Shown one piece after another: positions 11,912 to 41,460 of a stretch of DNA of 62,777 nt (position 1 is its first letter; every line of letters begins with the position of its first letter). The notes under the pieces were generated by a model that was given only the letters and a program-made list of their open reading frames with translations, was not told where the DNA came from and searched no databases. Position numbers and translations under genes: made by a program. Source of the DNA: Eubacterium sp. (GTDB lineage: Bacteria > Bacillota > Clostridia > Oscillospirales > Acutalibacteraceae); NCBI GenBank assembly GCA_017463985.1, contig JAFUEH010000022.1, forward strand, positions 1 through 62,777. Direction: 5' to 3'.

Positions 11912-12102
11912 ACAGAGAATATCAAACAGCGCTCGGTGGGTTTGTGACCTGCGAGCAGTGCTATTACGGCAGAGACCTCGGCGGCGGTGCTTACGGTTGT
12001 CGGAGCGAAAGGCGACGGGAGCTGAACCGGACGAAGCCTAGCAACACGATGGTAAATCGGAAGGACTTCACTTGTGAGTATGCCGAGGCAAAGTACGTAT
12101 GA
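11908..12102 (+). CDS. Small hypothetical protein with CxxC motif
   Basis: This 64-residue product begins MNREYQTALGGFVTCEQCYYGRD, with a later CRSERRR and TCEYAE. The cysteines could bind one zinc. It is translationally coupled to both neighbours by ATGA overlaps. The function is unknown. Confidence 0.6.
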   Translation: MNREYQTALGGFVTCEQCYYGRDLGGGAYGCRSERRRELNRTKPSNTMVNRKDFTCEYAEAKYV

Positions 12103-12428
12103 GTAAATACCACAATCAAAAAACGCGGCTCGACGGGATCGTGTTTGACAGCAAAAAGGAAGCGTAGCGGTATGCAGAGCTGAAGCTGCTGCTGCGCTGC
12201 AGCGCCATCCGTGATCTGAAGCTGCAACCGGAATACGTCCTGCAGCCCAGCTACCGGAAAGATGGCAAGACCGTCCGTAAGATCGTGTACAAGGCTGATT
12301 TCGAGTACATTGACGCCGCTACCGGCAAGGTCATCGTCGAGGATGTAAAGGGCGTGAAAACGGACGTGTACAAGCTCAAGAAAAAACTATTTGAATACCG
12401 TTATGATCTAACGGTAACGGAGGTATAA
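12099..12428 (+). pseudogene. DUF1064 nuclease (resolvase-like) with in-frame amber codon
   Basis: From ATG 12099 (ATGA overlap with the previous gene) to TAA 12426-12428 the frame encodes a 109-codon DUF1064 protein: MSKYHNQKTRLDGIVFDSKKEA, then after one codon RYAELKLL, QPEYVLQPS, YKADFEYID, VIVEDVKG. The family has a PD-(D/E)xK-like nuclease core and is thought to include Holliday-junction resolvase-like enzymes. Codon 23 is TAG (12165-12167), where family members have a sense codon. No restart codon follows, so the gene is dead unless suppressed. Confidence 0.85.
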
Positions 12429-12434
12429 AGAAAC

Positions 12435-12836
12435 ATGATAAAAAGAGTGTTTACGCCGGAAGAAACGGCGGCAATTGTTAACGATTATAAAAACAATGTG
12501 GTAGTAAGAGATATATACTCAAAATATAGACTTACCAGCAATCAGCTAACGAAAATTTTGCAAGAAAACGGCGTGGAACAGAGAATGCCAAGAGGAAACT
12601 CCACCAACAGTACAAAGAGGTTCAGAACCTGTCAGTGCTGCAAGCGCAAGGTCGAAGTGCGCGGTGCGCGGTTCTGTCCGTCCTGCGGCAGCGATATACG
12701 CAGCGAGGAGCAGCTGTTGAACGAACGGCTGAACAAGCTGTTTACCATGCTGATGGCGCTGCCGTCCAGTCAACGCGACGAAGCGCAGCAGATCATTAAG
12801 GACGTAGCAGTTTATCTGAACAAGCAGGTGAATTAA
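12435..12836 (+). CDS. Helix-turn-helix plus zinc-ribbon phage protein
   Basis: The 133-residue product has an N-terminal helix-turn-helix-like segment (FTPEETAAIVNDYKNNVVVRDIYSKYRLTSNQLTKIL). A zinc ribbon CQCCKRKVEVRGARFCPSCG follows, then a C-terminal helical part. The last gene before the late region often regulates late transcription, and a DNA-binding role would fit, but the family is not certain. Confidence 0.65.
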   Translation: MIKRVFTPEETAAIVNDYKNNVVVRDIYSKYRLTSNQLTKILQENGVEQRMPRGNSTNSTKRFRTCQCCKRKVEVRGARFCPSCGSDIRSEEQLLNERLNKLFTMLMALPSSQRDEAQQIIKDVAVYLNKQVN

Positions 12837-12838
12837 TC

Positions 12839-13081
12839 ATGTCGCAGCAAACCGGAAAGCAAGGGCACTGGGTGCTGATTAAATGTCCGTTCTTCCACTG
12901 TGACGACGCCAAGGGCATTAACTGTGAAGGTGTAAAAGAAGATAGCACGCTCAGGCAGATATTCAGAACAAAAGAGGACAAGCGGCAATGGGAAAAGCAG
13001 TATTGTGAGCTGCTGCACCGGTACGCCGAGTGCCCTATCTACCGTGCTGCCATGAAAAAATACGAAGAAAGCGAAGAATAA
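12839..13081 (+). CDS. Conserved small phage protein with Cys/His
   Basis: This 80-residue product starts MSQQTGKQGHWVLIKCPFFHCDDAKGINCEGV and ends in charged helices. CPFFHC plus a later C and the final CPIY suggest a zinc site. Similar small proteins often end early operons just before terminase. The ribosome site is CAGGTGAATTAATC. The function is unknown; a late activator role is possible. Confidence 0.6.
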   Translation: MSQQTGKQGHWVLIKCPFFHCDDAKGINCEGVKEDSTLRQIFRTKEDKRQWEKQYCELLHRYAECPIYRAAMKKYEESEE

Positions 13082-13092
13082 CACGCTACAGC

Positions 13093-13122
13093 GTGGGGGG
13101 TTACAGCCTCCCACTTTTTTTA
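13093..13122 (+). terminator. Intrinsic terminator, repeated hairpin copy 1
   Basis: The GTGGGGGG...CCTCCCAC stem (13093-13113) is followed by eight or more T. It separates the early operon from terminase. Related hairpins occur at 17513-17549 and 35422-35455. Confidence 0.8.
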
Positions 13123-13152
13123 TTTATTCTAAACATTGCAGGGGGATTACAA

Positions 13153-13689
13153 ATGAAGTTTAACGTGAAAAAAGCGGAACAGGATTATGTGACCGACACT
13201 GCGATGAGCTACCGTAGGCTGGCAGAAAAGTACGAGGTAAGCGCCCGGACAATTCAAAAAGTAGGCAAGAAGAATAACTGGGTGCAAAAACGAAAAGAGT
13301 ATGCGGAAAAGGTTAGCCGAAAATTCGCTGAAAAGCAGAGTGAAAAGGAGGCGGATAAGCTGGCGCAGCTGAGCACGGCCACGGACAAGGCAATCGCATT
13401 GGCGTCAAAGCTGGTCGACGAAGCGGCACAGGACGGGATCACCGTTAACGGGCTGAAAGAAATAGCAAACACGCTAAAGATATTGACCGGCGTGCAACGT
13501 GACCTGAACGGCATACTGACAAAAGCAGAACTGAACGCGCTGGAATTAGCGCGCGAAAAGCTCCAGCTGGAGCGTGACCGTCGCGGACTGGACGAAGGCG
13601 ACGGTGGCGAGTGCGGTATCGTGATGATGCCGGAGGTCGTCAGCGATGTTGCAGATGACATTGTATATGAAGGTGACAGCGATGCCTAA
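13153..13689 (+). CDS. terS: Terminase small subunit
   Basis: This 178-residue protein opens with a helix-turn-helix (QDYVTDTAMSYRRLAEKYEVSARTIQKVGKKNNWVQKRKEYAEK), the usual DNA-recognition domain of Firmicute phage TerS. A long helical oligomerisation segment and an acidic C-terminus follow. ATG 13153 is preceded by GGGGGATTACAA. It overlaps terL by 8 bp. It recognises the packaging site and recruits the large subunit. Confidence 0.85.
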   Translation: MKFNVKKAEQDYVTDTAMSYRRLAEKYEVSARTIQKVGKKNNWVQKRKEYAEKVSRKFAEKQSEKEADKLAQLSTATDKAIALASKLVDEAAQDGITVNGLKEIANTLKILTGVQRDLNGILTKAELNALELAREKLQLERDRRGLDEGDGGECGIVMMPEVVSDVADDIVYEGDSDA

Positions 13690-15118
13690 CGTGATATGGA
13701 GACCGCAGCCAAAGCAGGTCGCCTTTATGCAAAGGCCGGAATACGAATGTCTTTACGGCGGTGCTGCCGGTGGCGGCAAAAGCGACGCACTGTTGATCGA
13801 AGCCTTGCGGCAGGTAGACAAACGCAATTACCGCGGTATTATCTTCCGTAAAACCTATCCACAGTTGGAGGCGCTGATAGCGCGCAGCTTTGAGTTGTAT
13901 CCGAAGATCTATCCTAGCGCGCGATACAACGCAGCGGAAAAGCGCTGGCTGTTTCCCAGCGGTGCGCGTATTTTTTTCGGATATATGCAGCACGAGCAGG
14001 ATAAATACAATTACCAAGGCAAGCCGTATGACTTTATCGCCTTTGACGAGCTAACGCATTTTACCTACTCACAGTATATGTATCTGATGAGCCGTAACCG
14101 ACCGAACGGCAGCGGCACACGCGTCTATATGCGCGCAACGGCCAATCCGGGCGGTATTGGCCATGCATGGGTAAAGGAACGCTTCATATCACCGGCGCCG
14201 CCACTGACGCCGATTGAAAAGCGATATAACATACTGACGCCCGACAGAAAAACTATTCAGATCGCCAAGCGCAGGATATTTGTTCCGGCAACCGTCTTTG
14301 ATAATCAAGCGCTGCTGCAGAACGATCCAAACTATTTGGCAACACTGGCGGCATTGCCGGAGGCGGAACGTGAAGCGCTGCTGTACGGCAGCTGGGACAG
14401 CTTTGACGGGCAGGTGTTCAGTGAGTGGCAGAACGACCCAAGTCATTATCTTGACCGCAAGTGGACGCACGTGATCGAACCGTTTGAAATTCCGTTTAAC
14501 TGGCGGATTTTAAGAGTGTTTGACTTTGGCTACAGCAGACCGTTCGCGGTGGCGTGGCTGGCGTTTAATGAGGACGGCAAGTGCTATATCATCCGTGAGT
14601 ATTACGGCTGGAACGGAACGCCGAACCAAGGCGCAAAGCTGGCACCGGATAAGATCGCGGCAGATATCAAGTATTACGAAACGCATGACGAACGGTTAAA
14701 GGGACACGACATCTACGGCGTGGCTGATCCGTCAATATGGGATAAGTCGCGCGGCGAAAGCATTGCGAGAGTTATGGAAAAACATCCGAATTACATTCAC
14801 TTTAAGCCGGGCAAAAACGATCGGCTCAGCGGCTTAATGCAATACCACTACCGGTTGCATTTTGACGGTGACGGTGAGTGTATGCTGCAGGTGTTCAAGG
14901 ACTGCAAGCAGATCATCAGAACGCTGCCGGCGCTGGTGTACGACGAGAGCCGCGCAGAGGATATAGACACAGACGGCGAAGATCATTTGTATGACGCGAT
15001 CCGATACGGCTTGATGGAGCACACGGTAGCGCCGCGCGTACCGAAGGAGCTGCCGGATATGCGCGATGATCCGCTCAATCTGATGAGAGATTATTATAAC
15101 AACAGGAGAATAAGGTAA
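13682..15118 (+). CDS. terL: Terminase large subunit
   Basis: The 478-residue motor shows Walker A GGAAGGGKSDAL (about residues 26-37), Walker B FIAFDEL, the motif RATANPGGIGH and a C-terminal RNase-H-type nuclease with FDFGYSRPFAVAW and GVADPSIW. It packages and cuts the phage DNA at the portal. ATG 13682 follows GAAGGTGACAGCG and is coupled to terS. Length and motifs look intact. Confidence 0.95.
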   Translation: MPNVIWRPQPKQVAFMQRPEYECLYGGAAGGGKSDALLIEALRQVDKRNYRGIIFRKTYPQLEALIARSFELYPKIYPSARYNAAEKRWLFPSGARIFFGYMQHEQDKYNYQGKPYDFIAFDELTHFTYSQYMYLMSRNRPNGSGTRVYMRATANPGGIGHAWVKERFISPAPPLTPIEKRYNILTPDRKTIQIAKRRIFVPATVFDNQALLQNDPNYLATLAALPEAEREALLYGSWDSFDGQVFSEWQNDPSHYLDRKWTHVIEPFEIPFNWRILRVFDFGYSRPFAVAWLAFNEDGKCYIIREYYGWNGTPNQGAKLAPDKIAADIKYYETHDERLKGHDIYGVADPSIWDKSRGESIARVMEKHPNYIHFKPGKNDRLSGLMQYHYRLHFDGDGECMLQVFKDCKQIIRTLPALVYDESRAEDIDTDGEDHLYDAIRYGLMEHTVAPRVPKELPDMRDDPLNLMRDYYNNRRIR

Positions 15119-17175
15119 TGCCAAGACGTAAAAAGATTAACGAGGACGATGAAACCATCTTCCGCCCGACAGAGGAACAGCCGCCGGAGGAAATGACTGA
15201 CGATCTGCCGGAGGTATCTGCCGAACCGGAAGAAGAAATCGCGGATGATTATGACAGGGAAGCTGTGCAGCGCGACATTGAAGAAACGATCAACCGCGCG
15301 GAAGGAAACTTCCTGCAACGTAACAATGCGGCGATTGGTGAGCCGAAGCCACGCGAAAAGCGGCACCTGTCAGTGATCGGTGAAGCAGAGATCAGAAAAG
15401 CCATGGAAACGCTGAAGGCGTACAAGGATCACAAGTCGAAGCTTGATCAGCGTGTGATTGACAACGAGGAGTGGTGGAAGCTGCGCCACTGGTCACGGCT
15501 CAATAAAAGTCAATATTTCAGCACGGAGCCAACGTCCGCGTGGCTGTTCAACAGCATCATGAACAAGCTAGCGGATTACAGTGATAATTTTCCGGAGCCG
15601 AACGTACGCGCCCGTACTGTCAAGGATGTACAGGAGGCGGAACGCATAAAAAATATCCTGCCGATGATCTTTGAAGCAAACGACTACGAGGATACATATA
15701 TGGACGTATGCCTTTCCAAAATCAAAAACGGCACGGGCATTACCGGCGTATTTTGGAACGTTGACAAGGATGATATTGATATCCGGCCGATCGATATTCT
15801 GTCGCTTTACTGGGAACCGGGTATTAAGAACATTCAGGCAAGCCGGAACGTATTCACTATTGAACTGGTGGATAACGAAGTCCTCAAGGAACGGTATCCG
15901 GACAAGGATTTCAAAACCGGCGACGAGTTGGTTAAAAAGGAATATGTCTACGAGGACGCGATCGACACAACGGATAAGTCGCTGGTAGTGGACTGGTACT
16001 ATAAAAAGAAAGGCAAGCTGCATTACTGCAAATTCGTAAACGGTACGGTGCTGATCGCAACAGAAAACGAGCCGGACGATTATCCGAACGGTTTATACGA
16101 TGACGGCGAGTATCCGTTTATCATCGATACACTGTTTAAGATGGAGGGCACGATTGCCGGTTTTGGCTATCTTGATGTGTGTAAGTCGCCGCAGGAATAT
16201 ATTGACAGACTCGATCAGGCGATTATTCAAAACGCGTTAATGTGTGCTCGGCCGCGCTATTTCACACGGCATAACTCCTCTATCAATAAAGACGAATTTC
16301 TGGATTGGAACGTGCCGCTGGTGGAAACCAAGGACGGACTGGGTGAGGACGATATACGGCGTATTCAGGTGGAACAGCTGGACGCTGCCGTATACAACGC
16401 GCGCGACGGCAAAATACAGGAGCTAAAGCAGACAAGCGGTAACAGCGATGTGAATACCGGTACCTCTGCCAGCGGTGTAACGGCGGCGTCCGCTATTTCT
16501 CAGTTGATTGAAACCGGTTCAAAGGGCAGCCGACACACCATCAAGGGCACCTACAGAGCATACCGGCGCATGGTGTACATGGTGATTGAACGTATGCGCC
16601 AGTTCTATGACGAGCCGCGCTATGTCCGTATCATCGGTGACGACGGCACAGAGAGCTTTGACGAATACGACAACACCGGATTGGTCGAGCAAAGCACGAC
16701 GGGAATTGACGGCGAAGTCAGCCGCCTGCCAATGTTCGATATAGAGGTGTCAGCACAGAAAGCCTCACCTTACAACAAAATGAGCCAAAACGAGCTGGCG
16801 TTACAATTCTACGGTAACGGCTTCTTTGCCGCACAAAATGCCGATATGACACTGGCGGCACTGAACATGATGGACTTTGAACACAAGGACGACGTGATCC
16901 GGCAGGTGAAGCGAAACGGAACGATGTACGATATGCTGATGCAGGCGGAGCAGGAGCTCGCAAAGCTGCGCGCATTGACGGATATGGCGTACGGCAGTAA
17001 TCTGAGCGGCAATGCCCAGCAGATACCGCCGCCGGTGCAGACGGGCGCTAATCCGACGGAGGAAGAAATGCAGGCGGCATTTGGCAAAACAAGCAACTCG
17101 ATCAGAGAGGGCGACGGTACGAATTCTAAGGCAGAGCAGATGCGCCGACAGGCGGCGGATGCGACGGAGGTATAA
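15118..17175 (+). CDS. Portal protein (podovirus type)
   Basis: The 685-residue product has an acidic N-terminus. A portal-like core follows (NEEWWKLRHW, TSAWLFNSIMNKLADYSDNFPEPNVRARTVKDVQEAE, KNGTGITGVFWNVDKDDIDIRPIDILSLYWEPG, then CKSPQEYIDRLDQAII), with a helical C-terminal part. The size and the EPNVRAR block fit portals of short-tailed phages. The ATG overlaps the terL stop by one base. It forms the dodecameric DNA channel. Confidence 0.85.
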   Translation: MPRRKKINEDDETIFRPTEEQPPEEMTDDLPEVSAEPEEEIADDYDREAVQRDIEETINRAEGNFLQRNNAAIGEPKPREKRHLSVIGEAEIRKAMETLKAYKDHKSKLDQRVIDNEEWWKLRHWSRLNKSQYFSTEPTSAWLFNSIMNKLADYSDNFPEPNVRARTVKDVQEAERIKNILPMIFEANDYEDTYMDVCLSKIKNGTGITGVFWNVDKDDIDIRPIDILSLYWEPGIKNIQASRNVFTIELVDNEVLKERYPDKDFKTGDELVKKEYVYEDAIDTTDKSLVVDWYYKKKGKLHYCKFVNGTVLIATENEPDDYPNGLYDDGEYPFIIDTLFKMEGTIAGFGYLDVCKSPQEYIDRLDQAIIQNALMCARPRYFTRHNSSINKDEFLDWNVPLVETKDGLGEDDIRRIQVEQLDAAVYNARDGKIQELKQTSGNSDVNTGTSASGVTAASAISQLIETGSKGSRHTIKGTYRAYRRMVYMVIERMRQFYDEPRYVRIIGDDGTESFDEYDNTGLVEQSTTGIDGEVSRLPMFDIEVSAQKASPYNKMSQNELALQFYGNGFFAAQNADMTLAALNMMDFEHKDDVIRQVKRNGTMYDMLMQAEQELAKLRALTDMAYGSNLSGNAQQIPPPVQTGANPTEEEMQAAFGKTSNSIREGDGTNSKAEQMRRQAADATEV

Positions 17176-17177
17176 CG

Positions 17178-17504
17178 ATGTTGAAAATACAGATTGACAG
17201 GAACGTAAAAACCGGCGGCTATCGGTTAAAGATGAAAGGTCATTGCGGCTTTGATAAGGAAGGACGCGATATTGTGTGTGCCGCGGCGAGTATCCTTTGT
17301 CTCTCTATGGCGCAGGTGCTGCGTGAGAACAAGGACAAGCTGGAGGACAAGCCGCGTATTATCATCCACAACGGCAAGTGCCTATTAGAGTGGCAACCGA
17401 AGGCGCGGTATGAAGGTGCGCTGTTGAATTCGCTGTACACCGTCAAGGCCGGCTTGCGTGTGCTGCAGAATGAATATCCGGATTACATTGAAATGCGCGA
17501 ATAA
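17178..17504 (+). CDS. prp: Prp-family cysteine protease
   Basis: This 108-residue protein has the Prp signature MKGHCGFDKEGRDIVCAAAS, with H22 and C34 matching the catalytic His and Cys of the ribosomal-processing protease Prp. Host Prp trims the N-terminus of ribosomal protein L27 and, in phage 80alpha of Staphylococcus, structural proteins at LQ-hydrophobic-FA motifs. Here the gene lies between portal and scaffold, and both the scaffold (NLQLFA) and capsid (MLQLFA) carry such a motif, so they are the likely substrates. Confidence 0.88.
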   Translation: MLKIQIDRNVKTGGYRLKMKGHCGFDKEGRDIVCAAASILCLSMAQVLRENKDKLEDKPRIIIHNGKCLLEWQPKARYEGALLNSLYTVKAGLRVLQNEYPDYIEMRE

Positions 17505-17512
17505 ATCTATCA

Positions 17513-17549
17513 GGTGGGGGGTTACAAAGCCCTCCACTATTTATTTTAT
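17513..17549 (+). terminator. Hairpin terminator, repeated copy 2
   Basis: The stem GTGGGGGG/CCCTCCAC around ttacaaag (17514-17537) is followed by tatttatttta. The same sequence occurs at 35422-35445 and a shorter version at 13093-13113. It sits between prp and scaffold and may tune the ratio of upstream to capsid transcripts. Confidence 0.65.
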
Positions 17550-17601
17550 GATAACCGTAAGGTCGTGACTTACCACAGATTATGAAAGGGAGTTCACCTA
17601 T

Positions 17602-18495
17602 ATGAACGATTTGATGAAATGCAATCTGCAGCTTTTTGCTGATGGCAGTGAAGGCGGCGCGGATGCCGTCGGGATTGCAGGCGGTGCGGACGGAGAGTCC
17701 GCAGGTCAGTTCGCCACTGACACAGGAGCCACAGCTGCCGGTGGTGACGAAAATGCCGATGCACAGAAGGAAGCAACGTTCAGTGAAATGATCGGTGGCG
17801 AATACAAGCAGCAGTACGAGCGCGCGTTAAAACGTACGCTGGGACAGCGCTTGAAAACCCGTGACAAAAAGATTGCGGAGCATGAAACCTTCAGGGGACA
17901 GGTAGCACCGCTGCTTGACAAGCTGGCAGTCAAGTACGGCGTGAGCGACGCGTCCAATATTGAAGCGATCATGCAAGCGGCCGATAAGGACAATTCGTTC
18001 TACGAACAGTATGCAGCACAGCGTGGCGTCGATATCGAGACAGCCAAGCAACTGCTGGTGGCAGAACGGATCACCAAAGAACAAGAACGCAGGCAGGCAG
18101 ACGAGCAGCGCCAACAGGAATTCCAGCAGAAGTATAACGGCTGGCTGCAACAGGCGGCGCAGGTACAGCAGATTTATCCTGAGTTTGATTTTGAAACGGA
18201 AAGCACCAACGAAGCAACGGGCGAAAATTTCCGCCGACTGCTTAACAGCGGTGTAGACGTTCGTACCGCTTACGAGGTCATTCACAGGGATGAGGTGATG
18301 GGCGGCGCAATGCAGTACGCCTATCAGTCCGCCAAGCGGGATATGGCTGACGCCAGAACCTCCCGTAAAGCTCGCGTAAACGAAAACGGCACTTCTTCTC
18401 AGCAAGCACCGGCAGTGTATGACGACATGGCAAAATTGTCCTACGAGGACGATCAAAAAAATCAGAGCTGCTATCCGTCGAGGAGAAAAGGTTAA
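17602..18495 (+). CDS. Scaffold protein with N-terminal Prp motif; 3' end frameshifted
   Basis: The 297-residue product starts MNDLMKCNLQLFADGSEGG (Prp-type motif NLQLFA). A Gly/Ala-rich linker and a long charged coiled coil follow (KEQERRQADEQRQQEFQQKYNG), as in DUF4355-like scaffolds. Near the end, after YEDDQK, the frame leaves the expected capsid-binding tail. The +1 frame gives IRAAIRRGEKVNDRNFRDFL with a stop at 18521-18523. One fewer A in the A7 run at 18455-18461 would restore it. Mutation, transcript slippage or sequence error could explain this. Confidence 0.82.
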   Translation: MNDLMKCNLQLFADGSEGGADAVGIAGGADGESAGQFATDTGATAAGGDENADAQKEATFSEMIGGEYKQQYERALKRTLGQRLKTRDKKIAEHETFRGQVAPLLDKLAVKYGVSDASNIEAIMQAADKDNSFYEQYAAQRGVDIETAKQLLVAERITKEQERRQADEQRQQEFQQKYNGWLQQAAQVQQIYPEFDFETESTNEATGENFRRLLNSGVDVRTAYEVIHRDEVMGGAMQYAYQSAKRDMADARTSRKARVNENGTSSQQAPAVYDDMAKLSYEDDQKNQSCYPSRRKG

Positions 18496-18567
18496 CGACA
18501 GGAATTTCAGAGACTTCCTGTAAACGGACTTCCCCTCGCAGCAGCCAAAAACGAGGAGAAGATGATA

Positions 18568-19641
18568 ATGAAAACAAATTACAAATTCGGTATGCTGCAG
18601 CTCTTTGCAGCGAACACCAACACAACCGGTCAGAGAACCGGCACGCAGGAGCCGTATGAAAACGATCTGAGCATCGGTATGAAAACATACTATGATACGC
18701 AGCTACTTAAGAACGCAAGAACACAGCACTATTTCAGTCAGTTCGGCATGAAGGTTTCCCTGCCGAAGGGCAGAGGCAAAACGGTGGAGTTCAGAAAGTG
18801 GAATACTTTCTCCCCCAAGACCACGCCGCTGACCGAAGGTGTAACGCCTGACGGCAGCAAGTTCGGTCAGACCCACATCACCGCCGCCATTTCGCAGTAC
18901 GGTGATTATGCTGAGTTTACCGACGTGCTGGAGCTGACCTACTACGACGATGTTATTTTAGGTGCTACCGAGGAATTCGGCGCTGCCGGTTCCGAGACAC
19001 AGGACTTTGTGGTGCGTAACGCGATTAATGCGGACATTACTACCGGTCAGAACGTCTATTATGCACCGAAGTCCAGCGGCACTGCGGTAACGAGCCGTTC
19101 CGGCTTAGACGCTACCTGCCTGATGACGCCGAAGCTTGTTAACAGGATCGCGACGATCCTGAAGAAGAACAAGGCGCCGAAGATCAAGGGCGACTACATT
19201 GCGCTGATCCATCCGTCCGTGGCGATGGATTTAAGAGATTGCGATGGCTGGATTGACGTACACAAGTACGCACATCCGGAGGAAATCTACAACGGTGAGA
19301 TCGGCAAGCTGCACGGTGTCAGGTTCATCGAAACCATCAATACAAGAGTATGGGGCGCTGAGGTATCCGCTAACGGCACGCCGCAGAATTTATCTGTTTA
19401 CGGCTGCATTTTCTTTGGTCAGGACGCTTGGGGCGAAATCGACCCTGAAGGCGCCGGCATGGAAATGATCATCAAGCAGAAAGGCAGCGCCGGTACGGCT
19501 GACCCGTTGAACCAGCGTTCCACAGTAGGTTATAAGTTCTCTAATGCAGCGGTTGTGCTTTATCCTGAGAGACTGATCAGGGTAGAGTGTGTGTCCTCCT
19601 TTGGCAAGGATGATACCGATAACGGCTATGAAGCCGCATAA
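18568..19641 (+). CDS. Major capsid protein, N4-gp56 family
   Basis: The 357-residue product fits the N4-gp56 capsid family (MKVSLPKGRGKTVEFRKWNTFSPKTTPLTEGVTPDG, then YIALIHPSVAMDLRD and FGQDAWGEIDPEGAGMEMIIK). Its N-terminus MKTNYKFGMLQLFAANT holds a second LQLFA motif, a probable Prp cleavage site giving a mature N-terminus near residue 15. ATG 18568 is preferred for spacing from GAGGAG; ATG 18562 is possible. It lies directly after the scaffold. Confidence 0.92.
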   Translation: MKTNYKFGMLQLFAANTNTTGQRTGTQEPYENDLSIGMKTYYDTQLLKNARTQHYFSQFGMKVSLPKGRGKTVEFRKWNTFSPKTTPLTEGVTPDGSKFGQTHITAAISQYGDYAEFTDVLELTYYDDVILGATEEFGAAGSETQDFVVRNAINADITTGQNVYYAPKSSGTAVTSRSGLDATCLMTPKLVNRIATILKKNKAPKIKGDYIALIHPSVAMDLRDCDGWIDVHKYAHPEEIYNGEIGKLHGVRFIETINTRVWGAEVSANGTPQNLSVYGCIFFGQDAWGEIDPEGAGMEMIIKQKGSAGTADPLNQRSTVGYKFSNAAVVLYPERLIRVECVSSFGKDDTDNGYEAA

Positions 19642-19659
19642 CAAAGAAAGGGAGTAACA

Positions 19660-19953
19660 ATGGGAAACAAAGCAACAACAGCGCCGGAAACTACGCAGAA
19701 AGCGGTAGAAGAAACGACCGAGGAAATGGTAGAGGTTATTTTGCCGGTCGACGCTTCCAACGAAGCTGATCCAAATTATTACTGCGCCGTTAACGGTGTG
19801 GCTATGCTGATACCGAAGGGTGTACCGGTATCCATCCCGAAGCCTTACGCTGAGGTGGTGCTGAATGCTATGCGCGAGCGTAAGCTGATGAGGGACGCTG
19901 ACGCCAAGCGCATTGAAAAGGCAGAACAGCAGCGCGGCAATATGAATTACTAA
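19660..19953 (+). CDS. Small structural-region protein
   Basis: This 97-residue product has an acidic N-terminal linker and a compact domain (VEVILPVDASNEADPNYYCAVNGVAMLIPKGVPVSIPKPYAEVVLNAM). A short domain of this kind regularly follows capsid genes in related phages. Its role is unknown, perhaps a capsid decoration or minor head protein. The ribosome site is AAAGGGAGTAACA. Confidence 0.7.
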   Translation: MGNKATTAPETTQKAVEETTEEMVEVILPVDASNEADPNYYCAVNGVAMLIPKGVPVSIPKPYAEVVLNAMRERKLMRDADAKRIEKAEQQRGNMNY

Positions 19954-19972
19954 CAAGGCAAGAACGCACTGA

Positions 19973-20007
19973 AAGGGGCGAGGGTTAACAGCCCTTGCCC
20001 TTATTTC
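19973..20007 (+). terminator. Weak hairpin terminator or attenuator
   Basis: Imperfect stem AAGGGGCGAGGG/CCCTTGCCCTT (19973-20002) around ttaacag is followed by atttc. It resembles the larger repeated hairpins in its loop. It probably attenuates transcription after the capsid genes. Confidence 0.45.
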
Positions 20008-20021
20008 TATAGGAGACGATG

Positions 20022-20399
20022 ATGAAAACAACCACAATTGACGAGGCGATCAACTACTTTGATGAGCAGTGCCCGAACCAGTATTCAAGAGAGGAAAAGA
20101 TCGGCTGGCTCAGTGAGCTGGACGAACAAATATACGAGGAAATTATCAAGACGCGTGTCGGCGCACCGGCGGCGTTTGACGGCTATGACGACGAGACGGC
20201 AGGCGATACGGTGCTCTTGGTACCGTCATTATTTAAAGAAATATACCGGTATTGGTTGGAAAAGAGCGTAGATTACAACAACCGAGAAATGGGAGCTTTT
20301 AACAATGCAATGGCGATGTATCAAACTTATTACGACAATTATTTCGCTTGGTATAACCGGCACCACCGCGTTAAAGAAACTAAGCAGTTCATTATATAG
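20022..20399 (+). CDS. Head-tail connector / head completion protein
   Basis: This 125-residue all-helical protein (TTTIDEAINYFDEQCPNQYSREEKIGWLSELDEQIYEEII... FKEIYRYWLEKSVDYNNREMGAFNNAMAMYQTYYDNYFAWYNR) matches the style of connector proteins that follow the capsid gene. ATG 20022 is spaced better from GGAG than 20019. It likely closes the portal vertex. The assignment is from fold style and position. Confidence 0.65.
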   Translation: MKTTTIDEAINYFDEQCPNQYSREEKIGWLSELDEQIYEEIIKTRVGAPAAFDGYDDETAGDTVLLVPSLFKEIYRYWLEKSVDYNNREMGAFNNAMAMYQTYYDNYFAWYNRHHRVKETKQFII

Positions 20400-20412
20400 G
20401 AGACTAAAAAAT

Positions 20413-22830
20413 ATGAGATTTCCGGTGCTGACAGAATACGCCACCTATAAAGACAACACGGAACAGTTCGCCGGGTATAACCACAACGCGCGTATTGCGA
20501 ACGGCGAATGGCACGACCAAAGGAATATGACAATGGATCACTATCCGGTCGCGGCGACGAGAGAAAAGCGCGCACTGGTGGCAGCGTGCGAGGATACGCA
20601 CCTTTATACCGAACAGGCGACCTACGACGTGACCGGCAATCAGGGTATGGTATATACCGACGATGCACTGATTACGCTGGCGGATGTCAAAAAGAACGGT
20701 GAACCGGTCGGTCAGTGGTTATTCCGCAACGGTGAGCTGGTGGCGATGGATGAAGCGATCCCCTTTGCTTTTGACACAGCGCAAGTGTCCTACCCTGATG
20801 CGCAACCGCTGCAGAACGACATGGCGTCGATCGTGACCGGCGAAAAAATGCTGATCGAAAATATCACTGTTGACACGCAAGAAATCGCCGTAGGTGACGA
20901 GGTACGGGTACAGCTGTACAGAGTAGCGGAATATACCGCAAATCGCCCGGTGTATGAGCGTGGCCGCTCTATTTCCGGCGTTGTGGAAGGTGTTACCGAG
21001 ACGTCGGTATTACTGACGATCACTTCATTCACTGTCAGCAAAGCAAACTGGGCTGATATAAAAGGCACACTGAAGCTCGACCTCGTGACGCCAAAACAGG
21101 CAAGAAAGTCAAACTTACCGGCGGAAAGCGTAGAAAGTTATCTAAAATACTTCACCTACGGCCAGCAAAAGCAGGTCGTTCGCATGGGTTCGTATCTTTG
21201 TGTGCTGCCTGACGGTGTCGTCTATGAGCCAGAAAATACGACCGCGCCGGTGCCGGTGTTTCGGATAGAAAGCAGTTGCGATATCACCAGTATCAGCGTT
21301 GATGACGGCAAATACTACATCAACATGGCGTGCGCCAGGAAAAGTGACAGCGGCGACGGCTGGGAGACGGTGTTTGGCAGCGGTGCCGACAACACACAGT
21401 TTATTTTTAATGAAAATAAATGGCGGATACAGGACGACACGCTACAAGAGTATTTGTCCGATCAGGGCTTATGGGTCACGCGTCAGGCCTACACTATGAT
21501 TACCTATAGCCAAAAACGAACAGCAGACGAGGCCGTGATTTCACCGGTATCCGTTCCGAAAGTTGAAAATATGTTCGGTGATCTTGACGTGGGCGATACG
21601 GTCACGTTGGCGCTGCAGGATACGGTGGACGCCAACCGACAGGTATACGGCATTGTCCATGCAGATTACGACAATCCGGAGTCGTATGTGCCGTGCAGTA
21701 AAAAGATCATTGATAAAGGCAAGTGGAGCGATGGCCGCGAGTATATCGTCGTGGAAGGCTTAACCTACGCGAAGCGAACAAAGGATAAGGTGATCACCAC
21801 CGAAAGCCTGTACCGCGGCGATCATCTGACGCTCACGAGAAAAAAGCCGGACTTTGCGTCGATCGGCTGCGAGAGCCAAAACCGGCTTTGGAGCTGTTCA
21901 CGTGACGGGCACGAAATCTACGCCAGTACGCTTGGTAAGCCGTATAACTTCTACGATTTCAGCGGCATTGCCACGGACAGCTATGCGGTTAACGTTGGCA
22001 CGTACGGACAGTTCACCGGCTGCATTAACTTCCTTGGCAGACCGCTGTTCTTCAAGGAAAATGCGCTGCATTATGTCACCGGCAGTTACCCGACGAACGG
22101 CGGCGAGCTGGACAGCATGAGCTATGCGGTGACGCAGGTAACGGACTTCAAGGGCGTAGAAAAGGGAAGTGAACGCAGCTTGGCGATCATTGACAATGTG
22201 CTTTATTACAAGTCGTCTGCCGGTATTGTCGCGTATGACGGCTCGATGACAAGCGTGATTTCTTACCAGCTGGGGAACGGCAAATACAAAAATGCGGTTG
22301 CCGGTGCGTATAAGAATAAATATTACGTGTCCATGGAGGACGCGGATGGCAAGTGGCATCTGTTCGTATACGATACGCGGTACGGCGCATGGTGCCATGA
22401 GGATAACGTTCACGTCAAGCAGTTCCTGAACGTGAACAATATGCTGGTATTTGCGGACGCTGACACGGGACGCGTGTATAACGTGTGCGACGAGGATATT
22501 TTTGAAAACGGAGACTACCAGCCGGAGGGCGACTTTGAGTGGATGTGTGAAACGGGCACGCTCGGTTATTCCTACCCGAACAACAAATATTTGTCACGCT
22601 TGCAGCTCCGGCTACAGTTGGCCGCCGGCGCAAAGGCAGCGCTGTATATGCAGTATAACAGCGACGGCGTGTGGCACAAAAAAGGCGAGCTATACGGCAA
22701 GGGAACACGGACGCACCTGCTGCCGATCGTGCCGATGCGGTGCGATCATCTGAAAATGAAGCTGGAAGGCAGCGGCGAAGTACAAATATTTTCAATCGCA
22801 AAAATCTTTGAGGAAGGCGGTGATCGCTGA
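20413..22830 (+). CDS. Large virion protein, beta-rich (tail hub/stabilisation type)
   Basis: This 805-residue beta-rich protein has regularly spaced aromatic beta blades (IDNVLYYKSSAGIVAYDG, GAYKNKYYVSMEDADGKWHLFVYDTRYGAW, MLVFADADTGRVYNV), suggesting a propeller-like second half. It lies between connector and internal proteins, where podoviruses encode the tail tube/stabilisation protein. No catalytic motif is seen. ATG 20413 follows TAGGAGACTAAAAAAT; an upstream in-frame ATG overlaps the previous gene without a ribosome site. Confidence 0.65.
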   Translation: MRFPVLTEYATYKDNTEQFAGYNHNARIANGEWHDQRNMTMDHYPVAATREKRALVAACEDTHLYTEQATYDVTGNQGMVYTDDALITLADVKKNGEPVGQWLFRNGELVAMDEAIPFAFDTAQVSYPDAQPLQNDMASIVTGEKMLIENITVDTQEIAVGDEVRVQLYRVAEYTANRPVYERGRSISGVVEGVTETSVLLTITSFTVSKANWADIKGTLKLDLVTPKQARKSNLPAESVESYLKYFTYGQQKQVVRMGSYLCVLPDGVVYEPENTTAPVPVFRIESSCDITSISVDDGKYYINMACARKSDSGDGWETVFGSGADNTQFIFNENKWRIQDDTLQEYLSDQGLWVTRQAYTMITYSQKRTADEAVISPVSVPKVENMFGDLDVGDTVTLALQDTVDANRQVYGIVHADYDNPESYVPCSKKIIDKGKWSDGREYIVVEGLTYAKRTKDKVITTESLYRGDHLTLTRKKPDFASIGCESQNRLWSCSRDGHEIYASTLGKPYNFYDFSGIATDSYAVNVGTYGQFTGCINFLGRPLFFKENALHYVTGSYPTNGGELDSMSYAVTQVTDFKGVEKGSERSLAIIDNVLYYKSSAGIVAYDGSMTSVISYQLGNGKYKNAVAGAYKNKYYVSMEDADGKWHLFVYDTRYGAWCHEDNVHVKQFLNVNNMLVFADADTGRVYNVCDEDIFENGDYQPEGDFEWMCETGTLGYSYPNNKYLSRLQLRLQLAAGAKAALYMQYNSDGVWHKKGELYGKGTRTHLLPIVPMRCDHLKMKLEGSGEVQIFSIAKIFEEGGDR

Positions 22831-23063
22831 TGATTAACCTACCAAAGCCCTCTTTGCTGAACACGAAGGACGATAGCAAAGCAAACGCGGAGTATCTTGT
22901 CCGCTATCTGACTTCGCTTGTGGCAGCGCTGGAAAATTATTTAGGCGGTCTTAATACGAAGAAAGCAGCAGCGCCGCCAACGGTCGTCAACATCGCGTCC
23001 ACCGACACGAGCATTGTGTTTGTGTGGAGCGACGGCCGACAGCAAATTATACCGAAGGAGTAA
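22830..23063 (+). CDS. Small virion-region protein
   Basis: This 77-residue product has an N-terminal helix (NAEYLVRYLTSLVAALENYLGGL) and a beta-rich C-terminus (VVNIASTDTSIVFVWSDGRQQIIP). It overlaps the previous stop by one base (TGATG). Probably a minor tail component; no family recognised. Confidence 0.6.
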   Translation: MINLPKPSLLNTKDDSKANAEYLVRYLTSLVAALENYLGGLNTKKAAAPPTVVNIASTDTSIVFVWSDGRQQIIPKE

Positions 23064-23067
23064 ACTT

Positions 23068-24051
23068 ATGGCTTGGAAGAAAAACGGTAATAACTGGAAT
23101 TACCTCAACAGCGACGGCTCTAAGAAAACCGGCTGGGTGCAGGATAAGGGTAAATGGTATTACCTCGATAAAAACGGCAATATGAAAACAGGCTGGGTGC
23201 AGTCAGGCGGCAAGTGGTATTACATGAATACCAACGGCGATATGCGTACCGGTTGGGTCAAAGATAAGGGCGAATGGTATTACCTCAATTCTGACGGCGC
23301 GATGGCGACCGGCGCAAAGATTATTGACGGCAAGACCTACGGCTTTGATAACAGTGGCAAGATGACGTTTGAGGATCAGCCGTTCAAGTATAACGGTACG
23401 CTGGAGTCCCAGTCGAAGTCAGCCATGGCGGCGTATAACCGATGGGCTGACTATCCGGAGGCTAACGGCTATAACCGATATATCACGGACGTAAACGACC
23501 TGTACGATCAGGTGATGAACGCCGAGCGTTTCAGCTACGATCCACAACAGGACGCGCTTTTTCAGATGTATAAGCAGCAGTACAACGCGCAGGGTACACG
23601 CGCCATGAATAATCAGATGGGCGTTGGTACCGCCCTGTCCGGTGGCTATAACTCTTCCGCTGCACAGACGGCGGCACAGAGCACCTACCAAAGCTATCTT
23701 GACCAGCTTAACGAAAAGGCGGCGGATACCTATCAAGACGCATTGAGCCGGTATCAATACGACAACCAACAGCGCCTGAACCGATACAACACAGCGCTGG
23801 ATATGAATAACGCCGCCAACGACGCTTACTGGGCACAGCTGAGCGCACGGCAACAGCGCGCTAACATGGCGTATAACGCGTTTACGGACGACAGGAACAA
23901 CCAGTATACCCAGTATTCCGATAACCGTAATTACTGGCTGCAGCAGGCGCAGAACAACCAGTCACAGGCGAACTGGCAGAAGGAATACAGCCAGACGGAG
24001 AGCTGGAACAAGAAGAACTACGAGCTGAATAAAAAAGCGTATACAGGGTGA
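23068..24051 (+). CDS. Virion protein with cell-wall-binding repeats
   Basis: The 327-residue product begins with four choline-binding-type repeats of about 20 residues (TGWVQDKGKWYYLDKNGNMK pattern, residues 1-90). A Gln/Asn/Tyr-rich helical domain with SYDPQQDALFQMYKQQYNAQG follows. That domain recurs in the next gene (NYDPQNDAAFRRYADEYNALSG), so the two are paralogues. A wall-binding head on an internal or tail-tip protein fits attachment or penetration of a Gram-positive wall. ATG 23068 follows GAAGGAGTAAACTT. Confidence 0.8.
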   Translation: MAWKKNGNNWNYLNSDGSKKTGWVQDKGKWYYLDKNGNMKTGWVQSGGKWYYMNTNGDMRTGWVKDKGEWYYLNSDGAMATGAKIIDGKTYGFDNSGKMTFEDQPFKYNGTLESQSKSAMAAYNRWADYPEANGYNRYITDVNDLYDQVMNAERFSYDPQQDALFQMYKQQYNAQGTRAMNNQMGVGTALSGGYNSSAAQTAAQSTYQSYLDQLNEKAADTYQDALSRYQYDNQQRLNRYNTALDMNNAANDAYWAQLSARQQRANMAYNAFTDDRNNQYTQYSDNRNYWLQQAQNNQSQANWQKEYSQTESWNKKNYELNKKAYTG

Positions 24052-24056: not shown

Positions 24057-25304
24057 ATGGCGATTAATAAGAACACAGAGGACGAATACAACAAGAGTAA
24101 TGCAGCTTACCGCGAAAATAACAGTACTGCGTCGGCGCGCAACAATCTCACCGGCTTGGGCGCGCAGGCGCCGCAATACCGCAATTCGTATGCCGATCAG
24201 CTGGAAAATATCTACGGTAGGCTGAAAAACGGCGAAAGCTTCAACTATGATCCGCAAAATGACGCTGCCTTCCGTCGCTATGCGGATGAGTACAATGCCC
24301 TGAGCGGCTTGGCGATTGCCGGTAATCAGCAGCAGGCACAGCAGCTCACCGGCGGCTACGGCTCTACGTATGCGCCGGACGTGGCGGAACAGGGCTTAGC
24401 GCGGCTACAGTCCGGCGTAACGGGCGCACAGCCGGGCTTTTATAACGCTGCCCGTCAGGCGTATATGGCAGAGAATGACCGCTTGAATAATATGTACAGC
24501 GCTACCGCCGCCGCAAGAGACGCAGAGCTGGAACAGTATCAAAAACAGGTTGACGCCTATAATAACCGCTATCAGATGGCGCAGCAACGCTACGCGGACG
24601 AGCGCGACTTTGGCTATAACCAATACAAGGACACGCGGAATTACAACGCCAGCCAGTATGAATTTGCACAGAAGCAGGAACAGTTTGATAGCGAGCTGGC
24701 GCAGAAAGAAACGGAGTACAGCCGCGACTATGAGCTGAAGTCCTTTGAGGTGTACACGAAGCTGGCGGCGGTGAAGTGCGCCGAGTACAACGAGGCGAAG
24801 AACAACAGCGGCATGAAGGCATACCTTGACGGCTTAGTAGAGGCAGGCAAGATCACACAGTACATGGCCGATAATCTGTATAACCAGTATAAATATACTG
24901 TTACCTCATCGGGCGGTGGCGGTGGGCGTTCCTCCAGTGGCGGCAAAAAAAGCAGCAGTTCAAGCAGCTACAGTTACGACGGCGGCGACGGTGGCACTGG
25001 CGGTAGTGGCGGCGGTTCTTTCAGCGGTAGCGATAAAACTTCCGACTGGATTGTTGCGCACGACAGTATTAGAAATCGGCACACACATACCTTAAACGGG
25101 CACGAATCCTCTTTAACCGCCGACGGAATGACAAATGCAATACAGTCCGCTTACCAAAGCGGCGAGCTTAGTCAACAAGAGGCCGCTTATCTCTTGAACT
25201 ACTACGGACTTTCAGGACAAGCAAAACAGAGCAGTAGCAAGGGGAACAAAGGCGGTAACGGTGGTTATAACGGATCAACATACAGAACGACGCAAGAAAG
25301 ATAG
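24057..25304 (+). CDS. Internal virion (ejection-type) protein, Gly/Ser-rich C-terminus
   Basis: The 415-residue product shares the YDPQNDAAFRRYADEYNA helical domain with the previous gene. It then has a long coiled coil (residues about 150-260) and a flexible Gly/Ser tract, and ends in GQAKQSSSKGNKGG. Low-complexity and alpha-helical composition between the tail hub and the giant polyvalent protein suggests a protein ejected with the DNA. ATG 24057 follows AGGGTGATAAGC. Confidence 0.65.
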   Translation: MAINKNTEDEYNKSNAAYRENNSTASARNNLTGLGAQAPQYRNSYADQLENIYGRLKNGESFNYDPQNDAAFRRYADEYNALSGLAIAGNQQQAQQLTGGYGSTYAPDVAEQGLARLQSGVTGAQPGFYNAARQAYMAENDRLNNMYSATAAARDAELEQYQKQVDAYNNRYQMAQQRYADERDFGYNQYKDTRNYNASQYEFAQKQEQFDSELAQKETEYSRDYELKSFEVYTKLAAVKCAEYNEAKNNSGMKAYLDGLVEAGKITQYMADNLYNQYKYTVTSSGGGGGRSSSGGKKSSSSSSYSYDGGDGGTGGSGGGSFSGSDKTSDWIVAHDSIRNRHTHTLNGHESSLTADGMTNAIQSAYQSGELSQQEAAYLLNYYGLSGQAKQSSSKGNKGGNGGYNGSTYRTTQER

Positions 25305-25314
25305 GAGATTAAGT

Positions 25315-35421: not shown

Positions 35422-35455
35422 GTGGGGGGTTACAAAGCCCTCCACTATTTTTTTA
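35422..35455 (+). terminator. Hairpin terminator, repeated copy 3
   Basis: GTGGGGGG/CCCTCCAC around ttacaaag is identical to 17514-17537, here followed by atttttttat. It separates the polyvalent gene from the tail fibre genes. Confidence 0.75.
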
Positions 35456-40073: not shown

Positions 40074-41408
40074 CTACCCGAGTAATTTGAGCGATTGCAT
40101 ATACTCCCCAGCCATCTTCATGGCCTTTGTTTCGTATTCCTCAAAGACATCGCAATAGATATTCAGAGTGGTCTGAATATCGGCGTGGCCGAGGACCTTC
40201 TGCAGAACCTTCGCCGGCATGCCGCTCTCAATGCAGCGCGTCGCAAAGGTGTGCCGCAGCATGTGCTGATTGAACGGCTTGGAAGGCGTATGCTTAACAA
40301 AATAATACTTGCCGAAATTATAACTCCAATCAGACGGAGGATCCTTCGGCAGCAGCTGATACTCGCTACCGACCTTCCGATAATATGTGTATTTCTTATA
40401 CGCGATTCGCTCCCTGCCCTTCTCAGCCAGAGGAGTCATCTCCGCAACCATCGGAATGATTTCGTACTTTATCATTATGCGTTTGAAATACAAGTTGACC
40501 TGGTTGTCGGTCAGAACGCTGCCGTCGTCTTTACAGAATAGGAGGTTGTCCTTATTGGAAGGAAGCAGCAGGCAAGCATCAATCAGAGTTTTGCACTGGT
40601 CTGTAATGGTAACTACACGGACACCGTTCAAGGTTTTCGTTGTTTCGCCGATAATGGTCTTGGCGTTCTCGTCTTTGGTAAGGCTACGCTTAACCAGGAT
40701 GCGGCGTTCCTTCAGGTTGATATCCCGGCGGTCAAGAGCCAAGACCTCGCCGATACGCATTCCGGTACAGAGCATAAACTCAACAATATAGGAATACACG
40801 CTCTGGCGCTCCGGACCGTGCAGAACGCTGACAAGTTTCTGCTGCTCGGACACCGTGAGTGCGCTCACCTTTTTGGTGGCAATGACGGACTTCGGACGAG
40901 GAACATCCTCAATAAGATTGCGGTAAATGATTCCCCGGCGCACAGCGTACTTATACGCGTCCCGAACCTCGCGGTACACCTTACCGATAACCGAATTTGA
41001 ATAATGGGTGATTCCGTTAAAGAAACGAATTAACTGCAATTCGGTTATATCGCTGATAGAAAGAGCAGACACAGGCTGCTCACGAATGATGCGCAGCGCA
41101 TTCTTCCGGGTGAGGTAGGTAACCGGAGCAATCTGGTTGAGAGATTTCGCCTTCTCAATTAGATAACTGACAATCTCGGCCAGCGAGGAGGAGTCCGAGG
41201 TAACCAGCATTCCCTTCCGAGCCTGCTCCTTCAGTTCTTCCCATTTCTTTCGGGCGACCTTCTGCTCCTTATCGCTTACCTTCTTCCGAATCGGCTTATC
41301 GTTGAAATCATAGCCGACCGTGACAACACCGTACCAACGCTTCTTGCTTTTATCATAGTAAAGGGAGCCTTCACCATTAGTGCGGCTTTTCGTTTTCTGT
41401 TCAGACAT
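40074..41408 (-). CDS. int: Site-specific tyrosine recombinase (prophage 2 integrase)
   Basis: The 444-residue integrase has an AP2-like N-terminal arm-binding segment (GEGSLYYDKSKKRWYGVVTVGYD), a SAM-like domain, and catalytic motifs CTGMRIGEVLAL (Arg), HMLRHTFATR (His-x-x-Arg), LGHADIQTTLNIYCDV (His and nucleophile Tyr). ATG 41408 follows AGAGGAGTGTGTATTTTT; an in-frame ATG at 41489 lies inside the divergent promoter element and lacks a site. It is larger than the prophage 1 integrase because of an insert before the HxxR box. Confidence 0.95.
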   Translation of the reverse strand: MSEQKTKSRTNGEGSLYYDKSKKRWYGVVTVGYDFNDKPIRKKVSDKEQKVARKKWEELKEQARKGMLVTSDSSSLAEIVSYLIEKAKSLNQIAPVTYLTRKNALRIIREQPVSALSISDITELQLIRFFNGITHYSNSVIGKVYREVRDAYKYAVRRGIIYRNLIEDVPRPKSVIATKKVSALTVSEQQKLVSVLHGPERQSVYSYIVEFMLCTGMRIGEVLALDRRDINLKERRILVKRSLTKDENAKTIIGETTKTLNGVRVVTITDQCKTLIDACLLLPSNKDNLLFCKDDGSVLTDNQVNLYFKRIMIKYEIIPMVAEMTPLAEKGRERIAYKKYTYYRKVGSEYQLLPKDPPSDWSYNFGKYYFVKHTPSKPFNQHMLRHTFATRCIESGMPAKVLQKVLGHADIQTTLNIYCDVFEEYETKAMKMAGEYMQSLKLLG

Positions 41409-41425
41409 AAAAATACACACTCCTC

Positions 41426-41454: not shown

Positions 41455-41460
41455 GAATCA

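Follow-up and report, generated by a model that had tools for sequence, protein, structure and literature searches.

A Prp-family protease gene in a phage head cluster, probably serving to process its own capsid and scaffold proteins

We analysed a 62,777-nucleotide stretch of Eubacterium sp. DNA (contig JAFUEH010000022.1 of assembly GCA_017463985.1), hereafter the window; the genome measures 2.58 Mb and is assembled in 41 contigs. In a cluster of phage head genes, the window carries a gene for a small cysteine protease of the Prp family, followed by a protein in the position of the scaffold and by a major capsid protein (MCP), both bearing an LQLFA motif near the N-terminus. This gene very probably encodes the phage's own capsid-processing protease, acting on its head proteins. 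The assignment is based on the family, the active-site residues and the predicted fold of the product, the gene order and the sites in both neighbours, and further on the covariation of the sites with a loop of the protease and on the behaviour of related phages across hosts with and without Prp.

The head cluster encodes a Prp-family protease

The Pfam family PF04327 (Peptidase_Prp) covers the whole 108-residue product of the gene at 17178-17504, with 56 bits against a cut-off of 27. It is the sole Pfam match at E-values up to 1, and the HK97-type prohead serine protease domain was not found at this threshold. In the PHROG database, phrog_4478, annotated 'peptidase', matched with 62.3 bits. 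A profile of ten Prps matched the solved Prps 2g0i, 4peo/7kld, 7jvs, 2idl and 1s12, with E-values from 1e-13 to 1e-8. Through this profile, the segment GHADHGEYGHDIVCA of Staphylococcus aureus Prp (SaPrp) falls on GHCGFDKEGRDIVCA of the window protein, so that H22 and C34 have the same numbering as the catalytic dyad of SaPrp (4peo/7kld). The Prp signature with H22 and C34, which the first-pass annotation had read from the letters, is thus confirmed by both the Pfam and the profile match, and the alignment places the protein in the Prp family with a SaPrp-like dyad. On the other hand, the best of the NCBIfam models for ribosomal-processing Prps (PRK14553 equivalogs) gave 41.5 bits against a cut-off of 171, and the gene lies in a phage head cluster; we therefore do not assign it to that class.

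The residues required for activity are retained. When 34 selected phage Prps with good scores are aligned, the columns of G21, H22, G29, D31 and C34 are invariant. The GH...C pattern is present in 173 of 174 unique Prp matches, and the 174th has a shortened loop in which the H and the C are kept. Mutation of G21, H22, D31, C34 or S38 inactivates SaPrp (PMC9405229), and the window Prp has all five residues. An AlphaFold model from the 34-row alignment was confident (pLDDT 93.4, pTM 0.85), and its order of strands and helices, E E H E E H E or bbabbab, is the order described for family C108 (PMC9405229). The structure prediction, suggested earlier as a check of the Prp fold, thus came out in its favour. 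The least confident stretch of the model, residues 21-30, is the substrate loop, which is flexible in Prp crystals. Taken together, the gene encodes a genuine Prp-family protease, predicted to be active from the residues that it keeps. As a side observation, the Prps of two related loci, L067 and L019, have a very short substrate loop (GHSGMAPDLVCA, GHTDSRVCNA), as reported for the Prp of T. maritima (PMC9405229).

Candidate sites in the two neighbouring head proteins

Only two bases separate the stop codon of the P22-type portal gene from the start of the Prp gene, and the placement between portal and scaffold claimed in the first-pass annotation holds. The N-terminus of the scaffold-slot open reading frame (ORF) is MNDLMKCNLQLFADG, and that of the MCP is MIMKTNYKFGMLQLFAANT; the LQLFA motif claimed for both proteins is indeed there. 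The start MKTNYK given earlier is the second ATG of the MCP, two codons in. Among the window ORFs of at least 90 residues, only these two match the broader site pattern within their first 45 residues.

The MCP belongs to the N4-gp56 family, as its TIGR04387 score of 255.6 bits far exceeds the cut-off of 60. The product of 17602-18495 is a putative scaffold by its position, size and composition, its family phrog_13908 being of unknown function. Where the slot protein with a site was scanned in loci of another capsid family, it proved to be a Gp46-type scaffold of DUF4355 (2/2 loci).

Table 1. Head-gene features of the window and the predicted cleavage sites
Feature	Position	Strand	Evidence and remarks
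Terminase	13646-15118		upstream of portal and Prp
Portal protein, P22-type	15118..17175	+	PF16510, 102.8 bits; directly upstream of Prp
Phage Prp-family cysteine protease, 108 aa	17178..17504	+	H22, C34; also G21, G29, D31, S38; PF04327, profile match 4peo/7kld, AlphaFold
Terminator-like hairpin between protease and scaffold	17513..17538	+	hairpin scan
Scaffold-slot protein, 297 aa	17602..18495	+	phrog_13908; between Prp and MCP; N-terminal CNLQLF|ADG; proposed substrate 1
Scaffold LQLFA codons	17626..17640	+	predicted cut F12/A13; bond by analogy with L27 and 80alpha
MCP, N4-gp56 family, 359 aa (357 from second ATG)	18562..19641	+	TIGR04387, 255.6 bits; phrog_1357; N-terminal GMLQLF|AAN; proposed substrate 2
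MCP LQLFA codons	18595..18609	+	predicted cut F15/A16 (F13/A14 from second ATG); bond by analogy with L27 and 80alpha

The arrangement recurs in related phages

To compare the window with its relatives, we searched with an MCP alignment (A2) and kept the best 80 loci from viral contigs and the best 80 from genome contigs, the latter titled mostly as Clostridia-type metagenome-assembled genomes (MAGs). These loci were picked regardless of Prp. Together with ten INPHARED loci and the window they make 171 loci, 123 of them non-redundant at <90% MCP identity. A search with a Prp alignment (A1) confirmed 258 of 367 candidate stretches in viral contigs, of which the best 80 were kept. The related-locus search found no match with the window Prp as single query, whereas the alignment query succeeded.

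The Prp gene directly follows the portal in 81 of 82 non-redundant loci, with its start between -200 and +400 bases from the portal end; the count covers loci whose fetched DNA contained the portal as well as a Prp on the upstream side of the MCP, and loci with a farther Prp fall outside it. The strict site pattern, [LVIMF]Q[LFMHV][FL]A in the first 40 residues, has the weak point of having been set after inspection of the relatives. Across the 123 loci it is present in 98 of the MCPs and in 44 of the 98 ORFs in the scaffold slot, compared to 6 of 1052 other ORFs, a background so low that we rejected a chance motif. The Prp ORFs were kept apart from this background, and none of the 86 has the pattern. 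The layout that the first-pass annotation proposed to look for in other phages, a Prp gene linked to LQ[FL]FA-bearing capsid or scaffold proteins, therefore recurs widely. The strict motif was found in 70 of 86 MCPs with a Prp in the locus and in 28 of 37 without; for the scaffold slots the numbers were 36/73 and 8/25. A relaxed pattern, Q.[FLY][AGSDTNV], is matched by about 10% of background ORFs, so counts made with it are only supportive. In ten MCP homologues from other phages (two Bacillus, one Paenibacillus, two Streptomyces, four from Gram-negative hosts and one from a spring metagenome), neither an upstream Prp nor a strict MCP motif was found, and their two relaxed matches are not N-terminal LQ.F sites.

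Four of the six background matches (L054, L060, L062 and L066) share an N-terminal NLQ[LF]FA with a stretch of the SIVDYLK or SIVDYM type behind it, and they may represent a third family of Prp substrates. Later ORFs of 174-187 residues in L008 (9695-10219), L162 and L161 (10791-11363) start with MFETGLQLFAEAV, MFKTGLQLFAEAV and MERLNLQRFADT and are possibly tail proteins; a Prp-type site has been reported for the major tail protein of phi13 (PMC5744158).

Covariation of the sites with each other and with the Prp loop

In a comparison of 113 non-redundant scaffold/MCP pairs, the best shared 7-mer scored 24.9 within genomes, 21.5 between genomes and 15.4 after shuffling, and none of 20,000 permutations reached the observed similarity. 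Rare forms are common to the scaffold and the MCP of the same phage, as in LYRF|D (L019), NLRLF|D (L155), DLQMY|A (L135), NIQLL|A (L140) and DLQWF (L157), and, read by eye, LHT[HQ]MF|D in L010, even though the scaffolds and MCPs sharing them belong to different protein families. The pair of the window ranks only 89 of 113, because both of its proteins have the common form of the site.

The sites also vary with the protease. In SaPrp, the loop residues G29 and D31 contact the P3 glutamine of the substrate (PMC9405229). Among 119 loci, a P3 residue other than glutamine or a P1' aspartate was found with 4 of 6 Prps having a non-standard loop, as compared to 4 of the 113 Prps whose loop is standard (p 1.2e-4); of the latter four, two (L126 and L134) are artefacts of the pattern and are still included in this p-value. 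Small as the numbers are, the apparent covariation is in the direction expected of a protease and its substrates.

Phages with and without Prp across host genomes

Among the 86 non-redundant loci that extend 4 kb or more upstream, 67 have a Prp near the MCP. Eight more have one elsewhere, on a same-length contig in L207, L211, L220, L242 and L247, and in the same virus record in L038, L047 and L048. An MCP site, strict or relaxed, was found in 74 of 75 loci with a Prp on the DNA examined as compared to 8 of 11 without (p 0.006). Neither site nor Prp was found on the DNA examined in L089, L096 and L218, the relaxed match QGLS of L218 being counted as no site. Eight virus records were searched whole: five lack a Prp, and three of those (L064, L070 and L081) have a site. 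For L005, the examination was limited to the 13 kb locus.

The searches for L27 and for all Prps covered 79 of the 80 genome loci in 77 genomes (L226, from the same genome as L217, was left out), and L27 was matched in 69 genomes. Thirty of these have a short L27 (MAHKKG) and no L27-adjacent Prp. Even so, 27 of them have one Prp and one has two. In these 28 genomes the Prp lies within 5 kb upstream of the MCP in 22, on a same-length contig in three (L211, L242 and L247) and on another contig in three (L195, L221 and L235); 'same contig' here stands for contigs of equal length. The MCPs of the two short-L27 genomes without any Prp (G017/L218 and G054/L223) are site-free. A Fisher test over whole genomes gave 68/77 versus 0/2 (p 0.018) with the strict pattern per locus, and p 0.05 with the relaxed pattern, L218 as a match and one locus per genome; the absence of a Prp from a MAG may reflect incompleteness.

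An L27-adjacent Prp is present for 38 loci (36 genomes). A local phage Prp accompanies it in 27, while nine loci (8 genomes) have no other Prp. The MCP matches a site pattern in 8 of these nine, L177 having QLHA instead. These MCP sites resemble the host L27: on average 7.0 of 10 positions are identical in the eight sites without a second Prp, versus 4.1 of 10 in 28 sites with one (p 8e-4), a comparison of few independent lineages in which L178-L181 are close kin. In one example, MLKLNTQLFAH of the MCP stands beside MLKLNIQLFAH of L27. In L178-L181, which are kin of the window, the scaffold site is decayed to AQPFA (L178 and L179) or VQPSA (L180) or is gone (L181); L177 has kept one. For the remaining 11 genome loci, the L27 N-terminus was unreadable or odd. 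In E. coli, one of the control genomes, L27 was matched and Prp was not. The host pattern reads, from the sequences compared, as some phages owning a Prp and others borrowing that of the host, as 80alpha does.

The window's host has its own Prp on a separate branch

The genome of the window's host encodes a second Prp, between L21 and L27 (88.5 bits), and its L27 has the N-terminus MLQLNVQLFAHKKG with the core VQLFA. To place both enzymes, 23 Prps without a detected L27 neighbour and then near-copies were left out (268 to 161 rows). In the resulting unrooted tree of 107 columns, in which 85 of 157 forks are open, a single branch (SH-aLRT 89) separates the 21 non-redundant L27-adjacent Prps from the others, and the window Prp groups with those of L176 and L018 (SH-aLRT 99). 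Its place among other phage Prps, apart from the L27-adjacent Prp of the host, indicates that the window Prp is of phage lineage, and a recent capture of the host's own Prp was rejected. The earlier suggestion that the phage brings its own copy is in agreement with the tree. L176, L220 and L224 are titled Bacteroides, Bacteroidales or Bacteroidaceae, yet the L176 genome has a long L27 with an adjacent Prp; such MAG titles may be wrong.

Fusions and other capsid families

In seven loci (L009, L011, L013, L150, L153, L168 and L174, forming about three groups), Prp and scaffold share one open frame with a site at their junction, and Pfam confirms the Prp domain in L150, L168 and L174. In L168 and L174, no ATG, GTG or TTG lies in the 14 codons before the junction site (LQMF|A), and release of the scaffold would therefore need cutting. 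A restart is possible in L013 and L150, as an ATG with a preceding purine-rich stretch lies before the site. In the frame of L013 (4526-5683), the Prp domain is followed by two LQLFA sites spaced by about 47 residues, which looks like a duplication of the junction.

The association extends beyond the N4-gp56 capsids. Among 21 Prp loci without this MCP family, whose scanned MCPs belong to phrog_544, phrog_10 and phrog_840, ten have at least two site-bearing ORFs and three have one. Furthermore, all seven named phages that were fetched, out of 12 named among 26 matched records, have a Prp and a site on both scaffold and MCP: Dorea DO134P1, Acutalibacter Fontainebleau, Latilactobacillus TMW 1.1365 P3, Lactococcus PLgT-1, Enterococcus phiFL3A, Brochothrix BL3 and Oenococcus Krappator149. 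The site forms counted include LQVF|T, LQLF|D (predicted on both proteins of Fontainebleau), LQRF|A, LQKF|A and LQIF|A, and the MCPs belong to phrog_544, 10, 29 or 247. Separately, the 163 kb Staphylococcus phage SA 1306 Kay (OR844993.1) has a Prp-like stretch at 150524-150829 (26.5% identity, E 2e-5).

Proposed function and alternatives

In the mechanism that we propose, the phage Prp would recognise the N-terminal LQLFA peptide on the scaffold and the MCP and cut it between F and A with its C34/H22 dyad. This would remove 12 residues from the scaffold and 15 from the MCP (13 if translation starts at the second ATG), either ahead of procapsid assembly or in its course. An own Prp would free a phage with an N4-gp56 capsid from the ribosomal Prp of its host. 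We infer the cleavage itself, its exact bond, its timing and the benefit of a phage Prp.

Several observations weigh against this assignment. The MCP site is kept without a Prp on the DNA examined in 8 of the 86 loci, and L014 has a Prp and only LNLF|D on its MCP. The scaffold slot lacks a site by the relaxed pattern in 14 of 70 Prp-bearing phages; three of these (L010, L019 and L232) have a variant site or a mis-called start, start codons having been set by a simple rule that is sometimes wrong, as in the L010 scaffold, L036, L040, L202 and L248. Eight of the 21 Prp loci with other capsid families have no patterned site nearby: L100, L107, L136 and L171 end less than 700 bases from the Prp, L009 is one of the fusions, DLRLF|D stands on a capsid-like ORF in L166, the single site of L161 is on the later 187-residue ORF, and in L147 there is no site at all. 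Mutants of 80alpha whose capsid or scaffold protein cannot be cut are viable, and cleavage is thus dispensable there (PMC5744158). Finally, the host Prp could do the same job in the window's host.

This last point leads to a different explanation, in which the host's ribosomal Prp cuts the phage proteins, as it does in 80alpha, the phage's own enzyme being either redundant or otherwise employed. The L27-adjacent Prp of the window's host would allow it, and the nine loci in long-L27 genomes without a second Prp, eight of which have MCP sites resembling the host L27, suggest that such borrowing may occur. We nevertheless consider it distinctly unlikely for the window, given that 28 of the 30 short-L27 genomes still have a Prp elsewhere, in 22 of them close upstream of the MCP, that the loop type covaries with the phage sites, and that the gene follows the portal in nearly all loci where both were found. 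Somewhat less improbable, though still unlikely, is that LQLFA serves mainly in folding or assembly, for instance as a common peptide to which a chaperone binds, with cutting incidental. The 80alpha scaffold made without its N-terminal peptide forms no capsids, making the peptide essential (PMC5744158). A pure folding signal leaves unexplained why the sites track the presence of Prp and its loop changes, and why they lie at Prp-scaffold junctions; it can be true together with processing by the phage Prp.

The first-pass annotation also raised the possibility of an attack on host L27, and the phage Prp might act there either against the ribosome or to boost L27 maturation during infection. The overlap of the VQLFA core of host L27 with the phage sites speaks for it. 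However, cutting of L27 is its normal maturation, the host already has a Prp beside an L27 made as its substrate, the phage gene sits in a head cluster, and Prps occur on phage contigs in hosts whose L27 has no site: of the 28 Prp-bearing genomes above, all with a short, site-less L27 and no L27-adjacent Prp, 25 have it on the contig of the MCP. We therefore rejected the attack, and any action on L27 seems very improbable. More doubtful still is that the protein is an inactive relic or a Prp fold in an unrelated role. Some bacteria do have a Prp without a long L27 (PMC9405229), but H and C are kept in all 174 unique matches and the window protein has every one of the residues essential in SaPrp. 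Processing of the head proteins by the phage Prp is accordingly the explanation that we favour.

Relation to known systems

HK97-type prohead proteases are likewise encoded between portal and capsid and trim the MCP N-terminus. They form an unrelated family; in Pfam, the window protein is matched by Prp and by no other family. In lambda C/Nu3 and in herpesviruses, protease and scaffold share one gene with a cut or restart between them; these are other protease families, and Prp-scaffold fusions were found only in relatives, not in the window.

The closest likeness is to S. aureus Prp and phage 80alpha (MEROPS C108), with a homologous protease, the same H22/C34 numbering and an LQ.F|A-type site on scaffold and capsid. 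The host Prp cuts the 80alpha capsid protein and scaffold protein between F and A (PMC5744158, PMC9405229), and the host trimming mentioned in the first-pass annotation is thus on record (PMC5744158). In 80alpha, however, the protease comes from the host, whereas the window phage has the gene in its own head cluster; and the phage Prps lie outside the branch of the sampled hosts' L27-adjacent Prps.

A precedent for phage ownership is Cp-1, the source of one other clan CR enzyme named in PMC9405229, where the phage is called staphylococcal; its record is Streptococcus. Its orf13 matches the phage-Prp profile with 27.6 bits and is presumably the Cp-1 maturation protease. By the title of a report by Martin from 1998, that protease is reportedly essential for maturation. 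Cp-1 differs from the window in that orf13 stays under the Pfam Prp cut-off (18.5 versus 27 bits) and is not beside the scaffold, and in that its head protein and scaffold have no LQ.FA N-terminus. For a Shewanella phage, a predicted protease ORF is described with Prps discussed beside it, and the part of the paper drawn upon does not mention capsid sites (PMC10846135).

Phage records annotate Prp genes as 'peptidase', 'ribosomal protein' or hypothetical, and in phiFL3A as 'domain DUF464', so Prp homology in phages is already on record. Already known, then, are the protease family, the type of substrate and, with Cp-1, phage ownership. In the open-access literature, seen in part and with subscription papers mostly outside the scope, we found no description of a phage-encoded Prp with LQ.FA substrates. 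That the phage owns a Prp for its head proteins is well supported by the sequence comparison. What appears to be new is a coevolving, widespread and sometimes fused Prp system, present also in hosts that seem to lack this enzyme.

Other features of the window

The terminator-like hairpin 3' of the Prp gene could set the ratio of protease to scaffold. Hairpins of this class are not enriched (13 sites in 12000-21000 versus 11.6 in shuffles), and an Rfam scan of 12000-24000 gave no match. A hairpin follows Prp at a like place in L176 but not in L018. The 13-mer GTGGGGGGTTACA has three exact copies, at 13093-13105, 17514-17526 and 35422-35434, and opens the terminator-like hairpins at 13093 and 17513. 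The 20-mer AAGGTCGTGACTTACCACAG, 3' of the Prp hairpin, is exact in L176 and matches at 15 of 20 positions in L018.

Two separate integrase-family genes on the minus strand (550-1593 and 40074-41489) lie on this one 62.8 kb contig, perhaps as parts of two elements or of a composite prophage, and make a temperate phage or prophage likely. An ORF of 3384 residues (25261-35415) lies downstream of the head genes of this N4-gp56-type phage.

Significance

In 80alpha, the purpose of cutting the phage proteins is hard to isolate, as the host depends on Prp and simple removal of the enzyme is not an option. Phages that encode a Prp themselves, particularly those of hosts seemingly without one, would make the capsid role separable from the ribosome role, and testable. 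The relatives also provide a natural library of paired enzyme and substrate variants (LQLF|A, LYRF|D, NLRLF|D, DLQMY|A and others), and Prp has been discussed as an antibiotic target (PMC9405229).

On a broader view, which we offer tentatively and think possible rather than probable, phage Prps may be a largely unrecognised, widespread class of capsid-processing enzymes coevolving with paired substrates, found here with MCPs of six PHROG families (1357, 544, 10, 840, 247 and 29, some distantly related). Phages would shift between owning a Prp, fusing it with the scaffold and borrowing the host's by imitating L27, and the bacterial pair of Prp and long L27 may even be a domesticated phage capsid system: in the tree, which is unrooted and gives no direction, the L27-adjacent Prps are one side of a branch that has diverse phage Prps on the other. 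More immediately, the present analysis proposes a function for a phage gene that has been annotated as 'peptidase', 'ribosomal protein' or hypothetical.

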